The position numbers were made by a program, and so were the translations under genes. This document shows, one piece after another, positions 45,746 to 54,178 of a DNA stretch of 64,000 bases; the stretch's first letter is position 1, and every line of letters starts with the position of its first letter. The DNA lies in contig WQYX01000012.1 of NCBI GenBank assembly GCA_009781005.1, positions 1 through 64,000 on the forward strand, read 5' to 3'. Source of the DNA: Polyangiaceae bacterium. Its GTDB lineage: Bacteria > Myxococcota_A > Polyangia > Polyangiales > Polyangiaceae. The notes beneath the pieces are model-generated. The model saw only the letters and a program-made list of their open reading frames with translations, searched no databases and was not told the origin of the DNA.

Positions 45746-45916
45746 CTCGGAACCTCGCTACCTTAATGAGTGTGGATTACACGCATTAGCACACGCATGA
45801 ACGAGTGTGGACCGTAACTTGACTTGTCGCGTTGGCGAGTTCAGAAACCGTCGCTGCTTGGACAGGGCAGTCGCATGGACAGCGTGAAGGGCTCAGGAAA
45901 TTTTGGAGATGGCGTG

Positions 45917-48160
45917 ATGGCAGCGATGTCGGCGGAGCCGACTGCGACGGCCGCTCCTCTCCTCCGCACGGAAAAGCATGCAAGCGGTCTTGCCTCTGTC
46001 ACGCTCGAGGGCGCAGATCGCGCGTCGGCTGTTGCAATGACGCCCGCGCGCCTGCGCGATCTGGTGCGTGCCGTCGATGCCCTCGAAAACGATCCCGAGG
46101 TCGTGGCCATCGTCGTGCAGAGCGGCGCGCCCGATTCGTTCGTTGTCGGGACGGACATCGAATACTTGCAGAGTCTCCGTTTCGCGAAGGACGGGGAGAA
46201 CGCTGCAAGCGACATGAGTCGAGCGTTCGCGCGCATCGCTCGCGGGAAAAAGCCCGTGGTCGCATGTGTTCACGGTCGCGCGATGGGCAGCGGATTCGAG
46301 CTCGCGCTCGCGTGCACGGCGACGGTGGCTTCGGACGCCCCGATCACGGCGTTCGGTTTCCACGAGGTCAAACTCGGACTGATGCCCGCAGGCAACGGCC
46401 TCTTCCGCGTCGCCGAGCGCGCCGGCTTGCGCGCCGCGATCGACCTCGGACTGTCGGGTCGAAGCTTGCGCGCCGAGCGTGCGCGGTCGCTGGGTCTGGT
46501 TGACGAAGTTGTCGCCGAGGCCATCGTACGAAAAACGGCAGGCGCACTCGCTCTTCGGCTCGCGAGGGAGCCAAAGCTTCGCAAACTCTTGCCGAAGACG
46601 CGCATCGAGCGAGCGACGAGCACCTGGCAGTTGCTCGCCGCGCGCATGCTCATCGATCACAGCTTTCTGGGCAAAAGTCTCCTCTTTCGCCGTGCGCGGG
46701 CGAACGCACGCGAGGAGACGCGGGGCCACTACCCCGCGGCCGAGTACATGCTCGACGTGCTCGAACGCTTTGGCCATCGCGGTTTCGGCGCTGCTGCCAA
46801 GACTGCCGCGCGCTTGTTCGGCGAGCTCGTCGTCAGCGAAACCGCGCATCGCCTGCTCGAACTCTTCGTCGCCCGCACTGCGATGAAGGAGGAGACCGGG
46901 CCGCACGAGCAGGGCGCGATCAGCGACGCGCCGCACGCAACCGAGCGCGTCGCCATCTTCGGCGCCGGGTTGATGGGCGCGGGCATCGCGGCGGTCACGG
47001 TGCAGGCTGGTATCGCGACGCGCATGAAGGATCGCGATGACGCTCACGTCGGACGCGGGCTCCGCTGGGTGAAAGAGCAACTCGACAGGCGCGAACGCAG
47101 CGGCGCAATGACCGCACTCGAACGCGACCAGGCATTCGCGCGCCTTGAAGGCACCGTGGACGACACGGGCTTCCATCACGCCGACGTGGTCATCGAGGCC
47201 GTGTACGAAGACCTTTCACTCAAGCACGAGATCTTGCGCGAGATCGAAGGACTCGTCAGCGAGCGTTGCGTCATCGCTTCGAATACGGCGTCTTTGCCCA
47301 TCACGAAAATCGCCGAGGTTGCACGCCATCCCGAGCGCGTGCTCGGAATGCATTATTTCCGGCCGGCAACGCGCATTCGCTTCGTCGAAATCGTGCGAAC
47401 GAAGCACACGGATCCGCGCGCTATCAAGACGGCCGTCGAGCTCGGAAAGCGACAAGGCAAGTCCGCCATCGTCGTGGACGACGGTACCGGTTTCTACTCG
47501 ACGCGTATCCTCACACCCTTCCTGAATGAAGCCCTTTGCTTGCTCGAAGACGGCGTGCCCATCGACCTCATCGACGAAGCGATCGTCGATTGGGGCTTCC
47601 CTGTTGGGCCGTTTCGCCTGCTCGACGAGATCGGCATCGACTTCGCCGGCCACGTTGCCCAGATCGCTTACGCGAGTTTTGGCGAGCGCATGCGCCCCGC
47701 GGATCTGTTCGTGGACCTCGCGAAGGATGATCGGAAGGGTCGCAAGAATGCGCGTGGCTTTTACTTCCACCGAGGCGGCGTTGCATCCGCGCCGTCGCGC
47801 AACAAAGACAAGCCTCACGTCGACGACACCGTTTATCGCGCGCTGTCGGTGATACCGAAACGCCGTGTGACGGCGGAGGAGATTCAACTTCGGTGTTCGC
47901 TCCGCATGGTGAATGAGGCGTTACGTTGTCTCGACGAAGGCATCCTGCGATCGGCGCGCGACGGCGACATCGCAGCCGTCCTCGGTCTTGGCTTTCCGCC
48001 CTTCCGCGGCGGTCCATTCCGTTACGTCGACGTGCTCGGTGCGAACGAAGTGCTGCGGCGCACGCGCTCGCTCGAGCAACGCCTCGGTGAGCGCTTCGAA
48101 CCGGCTCCGATGCTCGTCGACATGGCCCGCACCAGCAAACGTTGTTTGTACTCTTCTTAA
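45917..48160 (+). CDS. fadJ: FadJ/FadB-type enoyl-CoA hydratase / 3-hydroxyacyl-CoA dehydrogenase
   Basis: A 747-residue bifunctional beta-oxidation enzyme. The N-terminal crotonase half has the oxyanion loop and both catalytic Glu (GSGFELALAC, FGFHEVKLGLMPAGNG). The dehydrogenase half has the NAD fingerprint IFGAGLMGAGIA and catalytic His in GMHYFRPA. The C-terminal pair of helical domains ends the protein. The ATG at 45917 follows a GGAGATGG ribosome site; ATG 45875 is the next alternative upstream. The usual thiolase partner is not adjacent. A hairpin of the TTGTACTC family overlaps the stop. Confidence 0.92.
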   Translation: MAAMSAEPTATAAPLLRTEKHASGLASVTLEGADRASAVAMTPARLRDLVRAVDALENDPEVVAIVVQSGAPDSFVVGTDIEYLQSLRFAKDGENAASDMSRAFARIARGKKPVVACVHGRAMGSGFELALACTATVASDAPITAFGFHEVKLGLMPAGNGLFRVAERAGLRAAIDLGLSGRSLRAERARSLGLVDEVVAEAIVRKTAGALALRLAREPKLRKLLPKTRIERATSTWQLLAARMLIDHSFLGKSLLFRRARANAREETRGHYPAAEYMLDVLERFGHRGFGAAAKTAARLFGELVVSETAHRLLELFVARTAMKEETGPHEQGAISDAPHATERVAIFGAGLMGAGIAAVTVQAGIATRMKDRDDAHVGRGLRWVKEQLDRRERSGAMTALERDQAFARLEGTVDDTGFHHADVVIEAVYEDLSLKHEILREIEGLVSERCVIASNTASLPITKIAEVARHPERVLGMHYFRPATRIRFVEIVRTKHTDPRAIKTAVELGKRQGKSAIVVDDGTGFYSTRILTPFLNEALCLLEDGVPIDLIDEAIVDWGFPVGPFRLLDEIGIDFAGHVAQIAYASFGERMRPADLFVDLAKDDRKGRKNARGFYFHRGGVASAPSRNKDKPHVDDTVYRALSVIPKRRVTAEEIQLRCSLRMVNEALRCLDEGILRSARDGDIAAVLGLGFPPFRGGPFRYVDVLGANEVLRRTRSLEQRLGERFEPAPMLVDMARTSKRCLYSS

Positions 48161-48168
48161 GAGTACAA
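48146..48168. terminator. 10-bp hairpin, TTGTACTC family, over the fadJ stop
   Basis: TTGTACTCTT (48146-48155) pairs with AAGAGTACAA (48159-48168), loop CTT. The TAA stop of the beta-oxidation gene lies in the loop and right arm. A loose T-run (GGGTTTT) follows 10 bases later, so termination on the plus strand is plausible. Confidence 0.6.
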
Positions 48169-48247
48169 TATTCGGGTTTTCTACGAGTACGGCCCGGGTA
48201 AGGCACCTTAACTTGTATTCGCCGTTCGCAGTGATCGATCATGACGC

Positions 48248-49429
48248 ATGACGATTCGCGCGATCACGTTTCTGCCGTCGCTCCGTCGTTCAACGCGCCG
48301 GCCCCCGCTCAATTTCGCCCTTTTTGAGGCCGCCGTTGCACTTTATGAGGAAAATCGTCCGCTCGATGCGCTCGGCAAAGTCTTCGAACATCTCATGCCA
48401 GGACTGCCTAGCCCGGATCTCAAAAAGGCGCCTTTCACCTTCACGCAGGGTTCCTCCAACGTCACGGTTCTTCTGGACGGGGATGAGTTCGTCGTCACGG
48501 TGCCGCTTTGCAAGCTGCCTTCCGGCCCCACCGCGGTGGCGGCCATGCGTCACGTGCTCACGAAGATTTCGGGCAGCGGGCAGCTTCACCAGCCGCGTCT
48601 GCATGGCGACGAAATAAAATTGGAGTTTCGCGACTCTCTCTCTCGCCTTCATCCTGCGAAAGTCGTTGAGGTGCTCCGCCGAATGCCAAACGAAGCCGAC
48701 CAACACGACGACTGGCTCATTGGGCAGTTCAAGGCCGAGCCGCTAAACCGCGCGGAAATCGCGCCTCTCCGGGCGGAAGACGTCCAAATTGCTTTTTCCA
48801 TGTGGGAACAACATTGGAATGAGGTCGAGGAGCTCCTCAATGAGTCTCGGCGCAAGCGTTCCATTTTTTTTCTAAATGAACTTACTGCCTTCGCAACGAA
48901 CCGTATTACGTGCGTGCTCCCGTTGTATGGTTTTCTCGTGGCACGCCTCGAAGAGGCCGTATCCACGTTCAACAATGCACAGGAAGATCCGAACAAGCGC
49001 GAGACCACGCTCGCCAAGTGCATCAAGGACATGAAGGCCGTCGAGGTGGACGAGCTGTCGATGAATCTCGGGTACGCCGAGTATGCGCTGAGTCCGTACC
49101 AGGAGGGAACTCCTCAAGTCCTCAAAGCTCAAATCGGTCCCGGCCGTTATATGGATATGGTCGAGGAACTTTTCAAATCCGGGAAATCGATCGACAGCGC
49201 CCTTGCGCTCGTTGGCACCTATTATTATCTCGCGGCTCGCTTCTCGTGGGAGGCCGCCGTGGAGGCGGATTTCTTGGCCGGGCTCGCGAGCGTCAGCGGC
49301 AAGCCGTGGCGAGAAACCACGACCGCGCTTCTCGAACACGCGAAAATGATGTCCGAGAAATATGGATCGGACGACGAAAAAGACGAAGACGGCAACAACG
49401 GGGATGACGAACCAGGCGAGGAGTCCTGA
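48248..49429 (+). CDS. YbjN/type III chaperone-like protein, unknown function
   Basis: A 393-residue cytoplasmic protein. Residues about 20-165 show the alpha/beta pattern of YbjN and type III secretion chaperones (helix, strand VTVLLDGDEFVVTVPL, helix AVAAMRHVLTKI, strand IKLEFRDSL, helix, AD-rich turn). The C-terminal part is helical and ends in a very acidic tail (DDEKDEDGNNGDDEPG). I cannot assign a function. It lies two bases before the serine-protease gene, whose C-terminus has the same fold class, so the two probably act together. Confidence 0.6.
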   Translation: MTIRAITFLPSLRRSTRRPPLNFALFEAAVALYEENRPLDALGKVFEHLMPGLPSPDLKKAPFTFTQGSSNVTVLLDGDEFVVTVPLCKLPSGPTAVAAMRHVLTKISGSGQLHQPRLHGDEIKLEFRDSLSRLHPAKVVEVLRRMPNEADQHDDWLIGQFKAEPLNRAEIAPLRAEDVQIAFSMWEQHWNEVEELLNESRRKRSIFFLNELTAFATNRITCVLPLYGFLVARLEEAVSTFNNAQEDPNKRETTLAKCIKDMKAVEVDELSMNLGYAEYALSPYQEGTPQVLKAQIGPGRYMDMVEELFKSGKSIDSALALVGTYYYLAARFSWEAAVEADFLAGLASVSGKPWRETTTALLEHAKMMSEKYGSDDEKDEDGNNGDDEPGEES

Positions 49430-49431
49430 TC

Positions 49432-50538
49432 ATGGTACTCGACATCGAAAAACTCGGAGTCTTTCAGATCTTTACGGGAGGTGGCACGGGTACGGGATTT
49501 CTCATCGACGATCGCCTCCTCATCACCAATTGCCACGTTGTCGAAGGTTATCGAATGGTGGCGGTGGAAAAGCGCGATCGTCAGCGCGTCGTCGGCACCG
49601 TGCGGAGACTCAGCCCCAAGCGCGATCTCGCCATCGTCGAACTTGGCGTTCCGCTCGAGGGGGAGGTGCTTTCGCTGGTGACGGAGGATGCACTTCAGCC
49701 GAAGCAGATGCTTCAAATCGTTGGTTTTCCGGTTGGATTGCCACTTTCCGTCACGGAGGGCGTCGTATCGAATCCAAAACAGCAACTCGATGGACTCGAA
49801 TACGTGCAGACGGATGCGGCGGTCAATCCAGGCAATTCTGGCGGTCCCATGCTCGACGAGGAGAAAAACGTCGTGGCCATCACGACGTGCAAGCTTTCTT
49901 CCGCGGACATGATTGGGTTCGGAATCCCGGGCGGGGAGGCCAAGCAGTTTTTCGACGGGTTCCGTGAGCAGACGGCTGTCTTCGGCGTGATGTGTCCTTC
50001 GTGCGACGTCCTGCTCGAATCGCCCACGAGGTATTGCGACTCTTGTGGCATCGATCTCGGAAGTCTCGATCTCGCGCGCTATTTCGAACCTGCGGTGGCT
50101 CACCCCATTGTGGCTTTCGTGGAAGGTGCGTTGACGAAGGCGGCCGTGGATCCCGTGCTCGCTCGGCACGGAGAGCAGAATTGGTCTTTCCATTCCGGCA
50201 GTGCTCCGATCAAGATCTGGTGCTGCTGTTCCGAACACGTGTGCTTCTCCTCGCCTCTTGCCAAACTCGGCAAGCAGCATTTTGGAGAACTCTTTCGTTT
50301 TCTCCTTTCGGACGAGCATGCGCCTTTCTCCTTCGATCTCGCCGACAACGTCGTGCGTTTGAACCTGACCGTCCACATGTCGGATGTCTTTCAGAGCGGG
50401 GAGCATGATCATTTTGTCAAACAAATCTCGGATTTCATTGCATCGGCCGATCGGCTCGACAACGTGCTCATCGACAAATATGGCTGTAGTCCCGCGCCCG
50501 ATACCCAATTGACTTTCTTGAAGGAAGGCACGCACTGA
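49432..50538 (+). CDS. Trypsin-like protease - zinc ribbon - YbjN-like fusion
   Basis: A 368-residue protein. Residues about 1-185 are a chymotrypsin-fold serine protease with the complete triad: His in ITNCHVVEG, Asp in KRDLAIVEL and Ser in NPGNSGGPM. No signal peptide or PDZ domain is seen, unlike DegP. A zinc ribbon follows (CPSCDVLLESPTRYCDSCG, about 188-206), then a YbjN/type III chaperone-like domain to the end (SAPIKIW, GELFRFLL, ADNVVRLNL, ADRLDNVLIDKYG). It probably acts in the cytoplasm. A type B repeat begins at its stop codon. Confidence 0.82.
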   Translation: MVLDIEKLGVFQIFTGGGTGTGFLIDDRLLITNCHVVEGYRMVAVEKRDRQRVVGTVRRLSPKRDLAIVELGVPLEGEVLSLVTEDALQPKQMLQIVGFPVGLPLSVTEGVVSNPKQQLDGLEYVQTDAAVNPGNSGGPMLDEEKNVVAITTCKLSSADMIGFGIPGGEAKQFFDGFREQTAVFGVMCPSCDVLLESPTRYCDSCGIDLGSLDLARYFEPAVAHPIVAFVEGALTKAAVDPVLARHGEQNWSFHSGSAPIKIWCCCSEHVCFSSPLAKLGKQHFGELFRFLLSDEHAPFSFDLADNVVRLNLTVHMSDVFQSGEHDHFVKQISDFIASADRLDNVLIDKYGCSPAPDTQLTFLKEGTH

Positions 50539-50661
50539 GACCGCTTTCGATTTGCCGCGATCTCATCGTTGGGGCCTGCGCTGCGGTCCTCAAAGCCCTT
50601 CAAGGCTATTCCGGTCCGCTGCTCGGCCCCGCCTCGACCTCGCGTCAACTTGAAAGCGGTC
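50539..50661 (+). repeat. Palindromic repeat, type B (copy B2)
   Basis: The unit starts one base after the protease TGA stop. Its left arm begins GACCGCTTTCGATTTGCCG and its right arm ends CGTCAACTTGAAAGCGGTC. The interior contains CGCGATCTCATCGTTGGGGC, GCTGCGGTCC, GGTCCGCTGCTCGGCCCC and GCCTCGACCTCGCG. Confidence 0.85.
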
Positions 50662-50827
50662 TAACTCTAAAGGCTCTAACACTACTGCCGGAACTTCGTT
50701 CCGGGCTATGCGTTTCCGCTTCGCGGAAACCAGTCGTGTTCACTTGTCTCAAGGGGGCGCGGCGCCCCCTCTTGCCCCGCTTTCGCGGGCAATTCACCCC
50801 TCCGAAAAGCCGCTCCCGCGGCTTTGC
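50662..50827. repeat. Series of five small hairpins
   Basis: Between repeat B2 and the large hairpin lie several consecutive short palindromes: GGAACTTCGTTCC, GTTTCCGCTTCGCGGAAAC, GGGGGCGCGGCGCCCCC, CCCCGCTTTCGCGGG and AGCCGCTCCCGCGGCT. The opening ACTACTGCCGGAA is the same sequence as the left arm of the hairpin at 50828. Many of the loops are TTCG-like. No open frame is conserved through them. Confidence 0.75.
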
Positions 50828-50866
50828 TTAGCACTACTGCCGGAATACTTCCGGCAGTAGTGCTAA
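50828..50866. terminator. Perfect 18-bp hairpin
   Basis: TTAGCACTACTGCCGGAA (50828-50845) pairs exactly with 50849-50866 around a TAC loop. It lies 20 bases before the ATG of the small protein gene at 50886. It may end the upstream transcript or form part of the leader of the next gene. Confidence 0.7.
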
Positions 50867-50885
50867 TCCTCTTCGTTAGTAGGAA

Positions 50886-51248
50886 ATGATGGACCAGATT
50901 GAGTTCGTGCAAACGTTGGCAGAGGATCTTCGGCGGCGCGCGGAGCAATGCCTTGCAAACACGTCGCCGAGTGCGGTGGATGCTCACGAGCTCGCCGTGC
51001 TTTCTCTCCAGTTTCTTTCCGCCATTCGTTCTTCCTCGGGGCAGTTCTCCGGGATGCCGAGTGAAGGGGGTGCTCCTTATCGGGCTTCCGCATCGTGGTC
51101 TGGTGAACGCCCAGGCGCGGTCGACGAGAGCGTGCAGACGGCACATGTTGCGACTCTCGAGCGTGCGCTCGAGGACTGCCAAGGGCAGTTGCATCACGCG
51201 CTTGCACGGCTCCGTGCTTTTGAACGAGGGGATCGGCAGGGGCCTTGA
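50886..51248 (+). CDS. Small hypothetical protein, 120 aa
   Basis: A mostly helical, charged 120-residue protein without signal, membrane helix or known motif. Its N-terminus MMDQIEFVQTLAEDLRRRAE and C-terminal helix VATLERALEDCQGQLHHALA could form a coiled coil. It lies between the hairpin cluster and the two SPFH genes, 42 bases before the first. A structural partner of the SPFH proteins is possible (inference). Confidence 0.55.
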   Translation: MMDQIEFVQTLAEDLRRRAEQCLANTSPSAVDAHELAVLSLQFLSAIRSSSGQFSGMPSEGGAPYRASASWSGERPGAVDESVQTAHVATLERALEDCQGQLHHALARLRAFERGDRQGP

Positions 51249-51290
51249 GAACACCTGAGATCGAAAGCCAAAGTGTAGTAGAGCTAATGT

Positions 51291-52502
51291 ATGCGAGTTC
51301 CGAATGCTTTTCCCATCGACGGAGTGCCGTCGATCGAGATTGGGTTTACCTTGGCGGCCCTTTTTCTCGGTGTTCTTCTTTACGTTCTCGTTCGCATCGT
51401 TCTGCGCGGCTTTTTCACTGTTGCTCCTGACGAGCGCGCCGTAAGAACAAGTTTTGGTCGCGCGGAGCGAGTTCGCTCCGGTGCGTCGACGCTCGCGCTG
51501 CCCGTTGCGCAGGCGCTGCGTCCGGATGAGCGCGAACGCTATGCGTATCCGCAAGTGGTCGTGATTGCACCCGGTGTGCATTTCAAGTGGCCGTGGCAGG
51601 AGGTTCACAAGGTGAACATCGCGACGGTCACCACGAGCCTCGCGTTCGATCCGGAGTGGCCCCAAGCGAATGAGGGCGGTCGTCGTCTGGAGGCCGTGAC
51701 GAAAGATCATCTCAACACGATGATCAGCGGACAAATCCGTTTTCGCGTATCGGAACAAAATCTTTATGCTGCGATCTTCGCCGTCAAAAATCCGCTTGCG
51801 CATATCCTTGGGTACTTCGTGTCCGTGCTTCGTCAACGCATCGCGAGCTTCGAGGCCCCGCAGAATAGGCAGAATCGTCTCGCACCTGCCGGTCCATCGG
51901 ATCGAGTCCCGAACGCATCTGCGCTGTCCACCCGTGATGCAGGCGCAAACGCCGGAGATGGTTTCGCTGCGCAAAGAGGCGTGTCAATCAATGATCTTCG
52001 CAAGAACCTTCGCGATCTGAACGACCGCATGGAGGTGGATTGCATGTCGAGTTCGGCACGTTATGGCATCGCGCTCGACGCGTGTCTCATTACGGGGATT
52101 GATCCGCCGAACGAAGTCGAGTCGGCGCTCGCGGCGATCAACACAGCCTACAATCACGTTTCGTCAGAGATCAGCCTCGCGCAAGCGGCTGCCGACCAGC
52201 GTATCGTGCAATCTCGACGCGCGGTCGAAATCGAAACACTCCGCGTACAGGCAGAGACCGAGCCGTTGCGCGCGCTGGCGCGCGAGCTCGTCGCGCTCGA
52301 TGCCGGGCCGGGCGTACTCGAAGCGTACATGCGAAATCTTCGTCTCGGGCTTTTTGGTCGCGCCAAACAGGTTTTTGTCACGCCGTCCGCTGCAATTCCG
52401 GACGCACCTGCGGCACCTCCGCGCCTCGGTGCTCCAACGCGCGAAGGGGAGGGGTCTCGCACGTCGCGCCTGGGACGAGAGCCCGAAGGAGGACTCCGAT
52501 GA
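51291..52502 (+). CDS. SPFH/band-7 membrane protein A (HflK-like)
   Basis: A 403-residue protein with one N-terminal membrane helix (about 17-40) and an SPFH domain from FFTVAPDERAVRTSFGRAERV through VVIAPGVHFKWPWQEVHKVN. A long helical segment follows (AINTAYNHVSSEISLAQAAA) and a Pro/Ala/Arg tail. Band-7 proteins oligomerise into large membrane cages that corral proteases and other proteins. The segment of about 50 Asn/Ala-rich residues inside the domain (QNRQNRLAPAGPSDRVP) is unusual. It overlaps the next SPFH gene by four bases. Confidence 0.82.
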   Translation: MRVPNAFPIDGVPSIEIGFTLAALFLGVLLYVLVRIVLRGFFTVAPDERAVRTSFGRAERVRSGASTLALPVAQALRPDERERYAYPQVVVIAPGVHFKWPWQEVHKVNIATVTTSLAFDPEWPQANEGGRRLEAVTKDHLNTMISGQIRFRVSEQNLYAAIFAVKNPLAHILGYFVSVLRQRIASFEAPQNRQNRLAPAGPSDRVPNASALSTRDAGANAGDGFAAQRGVSINDLRKNLRDLNDRMEVDCMSSSARYGIALDACLITGIDPPNEVESALAAINTAYNHVSSEISLAQAAADQRIVQSRRAVEIETLRVQAETEPLRALARELVALDAGPGVLEAYMRNLRLGLFGRAKQVFVTPSAAIPDAPAAPPRLGAPTREGEGSRTSRLGREPEGGLR

Positions 52503-53383
52503 CTTATCTTGTGATTGCTGTTTTGACATTCGCCGCGCTCTCGTTTGGTATGCCGATCTTCTTTGCCATTCTCCGTATCCTGGGGTTTTACGACGTCGTC
52601 CGAGAGCGAAAGTGCCACGTGTACGTCCTCTTCGGGCAGGTCTTGGGAATTCTCACCGAACCAGGAATCCATCTCCTCATGAGCGAGCTCGGACTTCGTG
52701 CCATTCTCGTGCGCCTTTTCGGTCAGCGGCACGTGCTCGACATGCGCCTCGACCAAGAATACTTGCGCAGCCAGCCGGTGAACTCGGAGGAGGGGGCGCC
52801 CATGGGGATCGGGATTTGGTACGAGATGTTCATCAGCGATCCGGCTGCCTACCTTTTCCAGAATACCGATCCACGTGGATCCTTGCGTGCCAATGTGGGG
52901 TCGACCACGGTGCGTGCGCTTTCGAATATGCGCCTCGAGGACATGCTGGAGACGCGTCACTCGATGAGCCTTCTCGTGCGAAACGAGGTGTCTCAGAAAG
53001 CTCACGAATGGGGATACAAACTCGGAAGCGTGTATATCCGCAAGGTGCATTTCCGAGATGCGCAAATGGTTCAACAGATTGAGGAGAAGGTGACCAACCG
53101 CCTTCGCCAGGTCACGAGCGCCATTCGGCAAGATGGTGTCAATCAAGTGAGCCTGATCCGCGGCGCTGCCGAGCGCGAAGCCGCCATTGAGTTTGCCAAG
53201 GCAGCGACCCTCAGACCGCAGATCCTTGGGGCCACCCTGCGCGAAATGCTCCAGAACCCGCGGGTTGCGAATGCAACCTTCGACGTGCTCGAGACACAGC
53301 AGCTTCTTCAATCGCAGGCGGAAGTCTCGCTTCTTCCGCCAGAGGGATCGCTCATGGCCACACTCAAAGCGTCCCGATCATAG
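52499..53383 (+). CDS. SPFH/band-7 membrane protein B (HflC-like)
   Basis: A 294-residue partner of the previous protein. Its N-terminal membrane helix (about 3-28) is followed by an SPFH domain (GQVLGILTEPGIHLLM, HVLDMRLDQEYLRSQPVN, GIWYEMFISDPAAYLFQ) and an Ala/Glu-rich helix (LIRGAAEREAAIEFAKAATL). The ATG overlaps the upstream stop (ATGA), which points to equimolar production, as with HflK-HflC. No FtsH gene is near; the closest protease gene is the trypsin-like one at 49432. Confidence 0.82.
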   Translation: MTYLVIAVLTFAALSFGMPIFFAILRILGFYDVVRERKCHVYVLFGQVLGILTEPGIHLLMSELGLRAILVRLFGQRHVLDMRLDQEYLRSQPVNSEEGAPMGIGIWYEMFISDPAAYLFQNTDPRGSLRANVGSTTVRALSNMRLEDMLETRHSMSLLVRNEVSQKAHEWGYKLGSVYIRKVHFRDAQMVQQIEEKVTNRLRQVTSAIRQDGVNQVSLIRGAAEREAAIEFAKAATLRPQILGATLREMLQNPRVANATFDVLETQQLLQSQAEVSLLPPEGSLMATLKASRS

Positions 53384-54124
53384 CGACGTGCCGAGCGGTG
53401 ACGCTCCGCGGCGACCGGAGAGTGTGCCTCTCATGAATGCATCGAGCACCGGCGCCATGTTGTCTGCCCTGTTCTCATCCCACTCGTCAGCGCTGATCGC
53501 GTCAGTCGGTCGTGCGGACCCGTCGAGCATGTAGAACCAGGGCACGGTCTCGGTGTCGATGCGCATCGCGCGCAGCTCGGTCTCGAAGGTGTCGACGTCG
53601 ACGCGCACGAGCGTGACGTTCGCGAGCGCCTTCTGCATGCGCGGGTCGTCGAGCGCGGAAGCGACGTCGGCGCACTCGCGGCTCGAACGCACGTAGGTCT
53701 GGAGGATCACGGTGCGCCCGCGCGGTGCTGCGTTTTTGGCGACGTCTGCGAGCCCGACGGAGAGCGGCTGTCGATCGTCGAGATCGATGACCTCCAACGT
53801 TCCGTACACGCGTGCGCTCGCTGCGATGGGCGCCCGCGCACGGATGCCTGAATTGCCGAACCACTGGGGCTGAAGTGCGCTCATCAGGATCGCCGCGATC
53901 ACGATGACGCTGACGATCGTGCCGGTAGCACCCGTGATGATTCCGCTGATCGCGAGGCCCGAGCCGGCCTGCGCTCCTCGTGTGCGATCGATGTCTTTGC
54001 ACGCGACGGTGCCAAGCACGATGGCCGGAACGCCCGCGAATGGGCCAAGGCACAAGAGGCTCAAGAGCCCAAGGACCAGTGACAAAGCTGCCTTTTCATC
54101 CACGTTCGGCGAAGACGGCGACAT
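53378..54124 (-). CDS. DUF4190-type membrane protein with thioredoxin-like C-terminus
   Basis: A 248-residue protein. Residues about 10-85 form the two-helix DUF4190 module (ALSLVLGLLSLLCLGPFAGVPAIVLG, then GSGLAISGIITGATGTIVSVIV). The C-terminal about 150 residues look like a thioredoxin fold (VILQTYVRSSRECADV, LVRVDVDTFE, VPWFYMLDG), but only one Cys is near the expected active site, so no dithiol exchange is expected. The ATG at 54124 has an AAAGGG site. Converges with, and overlaps by six bases, the second SPFH gene. Confidence 0.65.
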   Translation of the reverse strand: MSPSSPNVDEKAALSLVLGLLSLLCLGPFAGVPAIVLGTVACKDIDRTRGAQAGSGLAISGIITGATGTIVSVIVIAAILMSALQPQWFGNSGIRARAPIAASARVYGTLEVIDLDDRQPLSVGLADVAKNAAPRGRTVILQTYVRSSRECADVASALDDPRMQKALANVTLVRVDVDTFETELRAMRIDTETVPWFYMLDGSARPTDAISADEWDENRADNMAPVLDAFMRGTLSGRRGASPLGTSL

Positions 54125-54178
54125 CCCTTTGAAGTTAACCCTCGCCGTCGCGATGCACATCGCGACGAATGCACCGCC

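Follow-up and report, generated by a model that had tools for sequence, protein, structure and literature searches.

Five open reading frames (ORFs) follow one another on a single strand of the 64,000-nt window, i.e., the whole stretch of DNA analyzed here, and all were found where an earlier sequence-only reading had placed them. That reading proposed them as one candidate module, a membrane-caged proteolysis or client-holding system. We treated them as two sets, unit 1 (48248–50538) and unit 2 (50886–53383), with two repeats in between:

48248..49429, plus strand: unit 1 gene 1, encoding protein 1 (393 aa), with a TY-chaperone (YbjN/CesT-type) domain, a helical domain, and an acidic tail
49432..50538, plus strand: unit 1 gene 2, encoding protein 2 (368 aa), a PDZ-less HtrA-like serine protease with a C4 zinc ribbon and a predicted TY/YbjN-like domain
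50539..50663, no strand: dispersed repeat A, ~124 bp
50677..50866, no strand: dispersed repeat B, ~190 bp
50886..51248, plus strand: unit 2 gene 1, encoding a 120-aa protein, probably helical
51291..52502, plus strand: unit 2 gene 2, encoding a 403-aa Band_7/SPFH protein with an N-terminal hydrophobic segment
52499..53383, plus strand: unit 2 gene 3, encoding a 294-aa Band_7/SPFH protein, with a 4-nt overlap with gene 2

The four long ORFs are real genes, with orthologues at 35–85% identity in other genomes, and the 393-aa and 120-aa proteins of the window had no significant Pfam match. Upstream of unit 1, positions 45824–48160 hold what reads as a fused 3-hydroxyacyl-CoA dehydrogenase/enoyl-CoA hydratase-like ORF, while an ORF on the opposite strand (53378–54160) lies downstream of unit 2.

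The interval between the units (50539–50885), described beforehand as repeat-rich and as a possible divide within the cluster, lived up to both descriptions: the two gene sets part here, and both repeats are dispersed, with 20 or more copies of each, 92–98% identical, in the 4.8-Mb genome (a lower bound, since 40 of 453 first-look candidates were scored). Repeat A is bordered by imperfect 23-nt terminal inverted repeats and repeat B ends in a perfect 18-bp hairpin (50828–50866); both are MITE/REP-like dispersed intergenic elements. The 66-nt region around the hairpin (50820–50885) has a predicted folding energy of −35.9 kcal/mol vs −16 for shuffled sequences (z −6.7), and the hairpin is likely to mark a transcript boundary. 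Neither a promoter nor a T-tailed terminator was detected above chance in a consensus pattern scan of 48100–51400. Overall, hairpin and repeats fit separate transcripts for units 1 and 2, short of proving them.

Distribution of the two units across genomes

We evaluated the association between the units in a first sample of 194 related genomes, searched with the proteins of both units and with orthologue cut-offs of E < 1e-150 for the protease (full-length) and E < 1e-50 for the first SPFH protein. The 393-aa protein was detected in 10 of these genomes, and full-length protease orthologues in the identical 10, always adjoining the 393-aa gene on the same strand. The first SPFH protein had clear orthologues in 23 genomes, and both units co-occurred in two, namely this genome and G038, where they lie on different contigs, vs 1.2 genomes expected (p 0.34). 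G009, the closest SPFH relative (85% identity), has no unit 1.

Comparing all five proteins with every fetched locus, we found no SPFH gene of the unit 2 type in the flanks of 29 unit 1 loci (17 genomes besides the window) and no unit 1 at any of 28 other SPFH loci, with the caveat that some loci end close to the genes, so that linkage over a longer distance may have escaped detection. In a phylum-wide sample, both units were present in five of seven unit 1 genomes (p ~1e-6 by genome, 7e-4 by genus), an enrichment that is due in large part to one genus, to which three of the five double carriers belong. Overall, 5 of 13 unit 1 genomes carry both units, mostly within one clade, and outside the window the units of double carriers are always on different contigs. 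The three sampled species of genus g95 (G263, G427, and G468; loci L100–L105) all have both units, again on different contigs, possibly reflecting a loose functional tie.

Taken together, these patterns indicate that the five genes are two unrelated, neighboring units rather than one module. A conserved joint operon of the five genes is excluded, and the absence of any shared locus among the 29 and 28 examined leads us to reject the five-gene module of the sequence-only reading, for which a gene-neighborhood survey of this kind had been suggested as the check. The result that this reading had itself named as counting against the module, namely that the protease/YbjN pair and the SPFH pair do not occur together elsewhere, was obtained here at the level of gene linkage.

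Within unit 2, the overlapping band-7 gene pair anticipated by that reading was recovered in full: the genes share 4 nt, both products match Pfam Band_7 (5.4e-15 and 2.7e-11), and the two are kept together as a pair in other loci. The 120-aa protein belongs to unit 2: G009 and G028 each have a homologue of it immediately ahead of the SPFH pair (50% identity in G009, which lacks unit 1, and 40% in G028). HflK-HflC are likewise encoded by an overlapping SPFH gene pair, but the window proteins score far below the corresponding NCBIfam equivalog cut-offs (19 and 18 bits vs 159 for hflK, 13 vs 134 for hflC). A link to FtsH was considered and discarded, both FtsH genes being on other contigs, and neither the linkage analysis nor the FtsH search revealed anything tying the SPFH pair to a protease or to unit 1. 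SPFH proteins are in general expected to form hetero-oligomeric membrane scaffolds, and this is most likely what the unit 2 pair does. Several further Band_7 genes are found on other contigs of this genome. Another tandem pair of Band_7 genes elsewhere in the genome (L119/L120, G000:C14) has long coiled-coil-like regions and reads as flotillin-like.

The unit 1 gene pair and its predicted domains

Unit 1 is a strict two-gene operon in 18 genomes including the window, from Myxococcota and three Gammaproteobacteria (two Lysobacterales metagenome-assembled genomes and Tahibacter soli), the latter with protein 1 at 36–40% and protein 2 at 58% identity. A family-alignment scan of ~85,000 species genomes yielded 17 loci, with the protease directly downstream in all 17. 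The proposed pairing of a YbjN-like protein with a trypsin-like protease is thus upheld, the two genes being adjacent in every one of the 18 genomes. In 16 of the 17 genomes other than this one, gene 1 stop and gene 2 start overlap as ATGA, and in the remaining one they overlap by a single base; in the window they are separated by 2 nt. Pairwise distances of the two proteins are correlated (0.89), as would be expected under joint inheritance, although vertical descent alone would give the same value. Protein 1 evolves faster (mean distance 0.53 vs 0.34 for protein 2), and protein 2 retains ~63–72% identity across genera. Based on clustering (rather than annotation) of the neighboring genes, unit 1 neighbors vary by locus except in near relatives, hence the pair stands alone. 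A mobile origin of unit 1 was rejected, protein 1 having no homologue in phage or plasmid records, as was membership of a PADLOC defense system, where a generic trypsin domain was the sole match and no complete system was detected.

Protein 1 comprises a TY domain (residues ~20–165), a helical domain (~176–372), and an acidic disordered tail (373–393). Structure prediction of its YbjN-like domain, a check proposed along with the original reading, returned a TY-type fold (mean pLDDT 88, pTM 0.83 for the protein, from a 10-member alignment). Residues 20–165 are predicted to run helix-helix-three strands-helix-two strands-helix, and the modeled N-domain shows the alpha-beta3-alpha-beta2-alpha fold. 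Residues 35–165 match solved structures of type III secretion chaperones, E. coli YbjN, AmyR, DR1245, and P. aeruginosa BacA with Z ~9–12, the best Foldseek match of protein 1 is 2plg (3.7e-4), and whole-model searches gave no clear solved-structure match for the helical C-terminal half. Among 10 orthologues, four have weak TY-Chap1 (PF22551) matches (best E 2.8e-4) and one a CesT match. Pfam does not support the “YbjN-like” label for the window proteins themselves, but TY-Chap1, CesT, and YbjN matches of relatives and the predicted folds do.

Protein 2 combines a protease domain (~10–183), a zinc ribbon (188–205), and a predicted TY/YbjN-like domain (~222–355). As first described, the protease is of trypsin type with an intact triad (Pfam Trypsin_2, 8.9e-26; H35/D65/S136) and is fused to a zinc ribbon with four cysteines (C188, C191, C202, and C205); all 18 orthologues retain the triad and the cysteines unchanged. 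Along with the trypsin-like fold and His-Asp-Ser triad, it has the GNSGGP motif, and its protease domain adopts an HtrA fold in the predicted structure (Z 21–23 to DegP, DegS, and HTRA1). No PDZ domain was detected by Pfam, and residues 186–368 are instead taken up by the zinc ribbon and an alpha/beta TY-like domain. The N-terminus, MVLDIEKLGVFQIFTGGG, reads straight into the protease fold from about residue 10, and the protein has no evident signal peptide or transmembrane segment on inspection of the sequence.

The second YbjN-like domain, assigned to the C-terminus of protein 2, is backed by its predicted fold and by matches of relatives, with weak profile scores. At moderate confidence (pLDDT 77.5, pTM 0.64), the model places a helix at 225–236, strands at 251–278, a helix at 284–291, strands at 300–315, and a helix at 326–350, i.e., the alpha-beta3-alpha-beta2-alpha order of the TY fold across residues 225–350. 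Profile comparison aligned the TY regions of proteins 1 and 2 colinearly (P 2.7e-4, controls 0.26–0.35), and a profile search with the zinc ribbon and C-terminus retrieved small free-standing proteins with Pfam assignments to TY-Chap1, CesT, or YbjN. These profile signals are weak but consistent and may indicate a TY-like domain.

Four genomes encode a diverged protease (~27% identity) with the same protease-ribbon-TY architecture, each preceded by a gene overlapping it by 4 nt. The N-terminal domain of these partner genes matches protein 1 (hhalign probability 97%, E 9e-11), and three of the four have a TY-Chap1 match (best 4.7e-7). The L061 partner is a TY domain alone, without helical domain and linker, which suggests that the TY domain is the essential part of the partner. 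A plasmid gene of Bernardetia sp. (Bacteroidota; L161:4926–6002) encodes a distant homologue, a protease-zinc ribbon-TY-like protein with no adjacent chaperone gene, so a neighboring partner gene does not invariably accompany the protease. On this reading, the protease architecture extends to at least three phyla: Myxococcota, Pseudomonadota, and Bacteroidota. Separately, G040 has, in addition to an intact pair elsewhere in its genome, a second protease-ribbon-TY homologue (L152:1448–4258, G040:C419) in which GNSGGP is absent, probably an inactive pseudo-protease.

A possible chaperone-protease system and its relation to known systems

Given the observed gene pairing, intact triad, predicted folds, and absence of SPFH linkage, we lean, on balance, toward two independent units, with unit 1 an autonomous, translationally coupled chaperone-protease system in which protein 1 serves as adaptor or restraint through TY pairing. 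Beyond these observations, we infer complex formation, client handling, and the direction of regulation. Specifically, the TY-chaperone domain of protein 1 would bind unfolded or exposed peptide segments of clients, and proteins 1 and 2 would associate by TY-TY pairing, by analogy with the homo- and heterodimers of class I type III chaperones such as SycN-YscB. Protein 1 may then present clients to the presumably cytosolic HtrA-type protease, or restrain it, with the zinc ribbon as a hinge, rigid or responsive to metal, that connects the protease and TY domains.

Alternatively, unit 1 could be a toxin-antitoxin-like or anti-phage pair, in which protein 1 silences a harmful protease until an infection or stress signal arrives. 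The patchy distribution over two phyla and the apparently inactive paralogue in G040 would suit such a pair, as would the fact that predicted conflict systems (PMC7159879, PMC9503650) include trypsin-like proteases and also TY chaperones. We nevertheless consider it rather unlikely: PADLOC matched only the generic protease domain, no neighbor genes recur, protein 1 has no phage homologue, and the slow evolution of protein 2 is unlike that of a fast-evolving effector. Protein 1 might also be a dedicated substrate, with protein 2 cutting it at a linker or in the acidic tail so that a signal is set free. The single protease accompanied by a single, invariant partner gene, the faster evolution of protein 1, and its disordered tail can be read this way. 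However, the C-terminal TY-like domain of protein 2, which matches the partner, speaks for binding and not just cleavage, and the L061 partner has neither helical domain nor linker; we regard this explanation as improbable. Finally, an SPFH cage recruiting the YbjN-protease pair, so that all five genes form one system, is very hard to credit: the genes are adjacent and co-directional in the window and double carriage is enriched in the phylum sample, but the units are linked in no other genome examined, co-occur at chance among the 194 relatives, and are parted by dispersed repeats here; moreover, G009, the closest SPFH relative, lacks unit 1, and the PspA genes are on other contigs of this genome.

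For the preferred chaperone-protease reading, the nearest precedents are conflict operons that contain TY-chaperones (PMC9503650), CesT/Tir-PspA-band-7 operons (PMC11237479), and trypsin-like effectors that have partner domains (PMC7159879). The parts of unit 1 are known ones, and their combination appears undescribed: a trypsin-like protease with YbjN was not found in the literature searched, which left subscription journals and preprints outside. More tentatively, unit 1 may represent an undescribed class of cytosolic, ATP-independent HtrA-type proteases, in which a zinc ribbon and a type III-chaperone-like domain replace PDZ and a TY-chaperone delivers clients by heterodimerization. ATP-driven machines are generally seen as the main agents of regulated proteolysis in the bacterial cytosol. 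If the proposal is true, a conserved pair of an HtrA-like protease and a type III-class chaperone would provide another route that needs no ATP and brings its own adaptor. The YbjN/TY-chaperone superfamily, for which no biochemical role has been agreed upon, would gain a testable partner and substrate system.

Among known systems, the CesT/Tir-PspA-band-7 operons and the P. aeruginosa bac operon (PMC11237479, PMC10948618) also have a TY/CesT-type protein and an SPFH protein in one neighborhood; however, the SPFH linkage of unit 1 is seen only in this genome, and a PspA link was rejected because this genome has its PspA genes on other contigs. The ADP-ribose (ARG) conflict operons (PMC9503650) share a TY-Chap1-like predicted peptide-binding chaperone, whereas unit 1 has no recurring partner genes, and trypsin is not mentioned in the text of that study. 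In predicted fold, residues 35–165 of protein 1 resemble the TY-chaperones (YbjN, AmyR, DR1245, BacA, and TY-Chap1) and the class I type III secretion chaperones (SycN-YscB, ExsC, and CesT; Z ~9–12), but the TY domain of protein 1 is fused to a ~200-residue helical domain and an acidic tail, and it is paired with a protease instead of a secreted effector. Protein 2, in turn, shares protease fold and triad with the HtrA/Deg family (HhoA, DegP, DegS, and HTRA1; Z 21–23, ~20–30% identity), yet scores 106 bits vs the 450 required by the curated equivalog cut-off, has no visible export signal, carries a zinc ribbon and TY-like domain in place of PDZ, and differs from that family in having a co-encoded TY partner.
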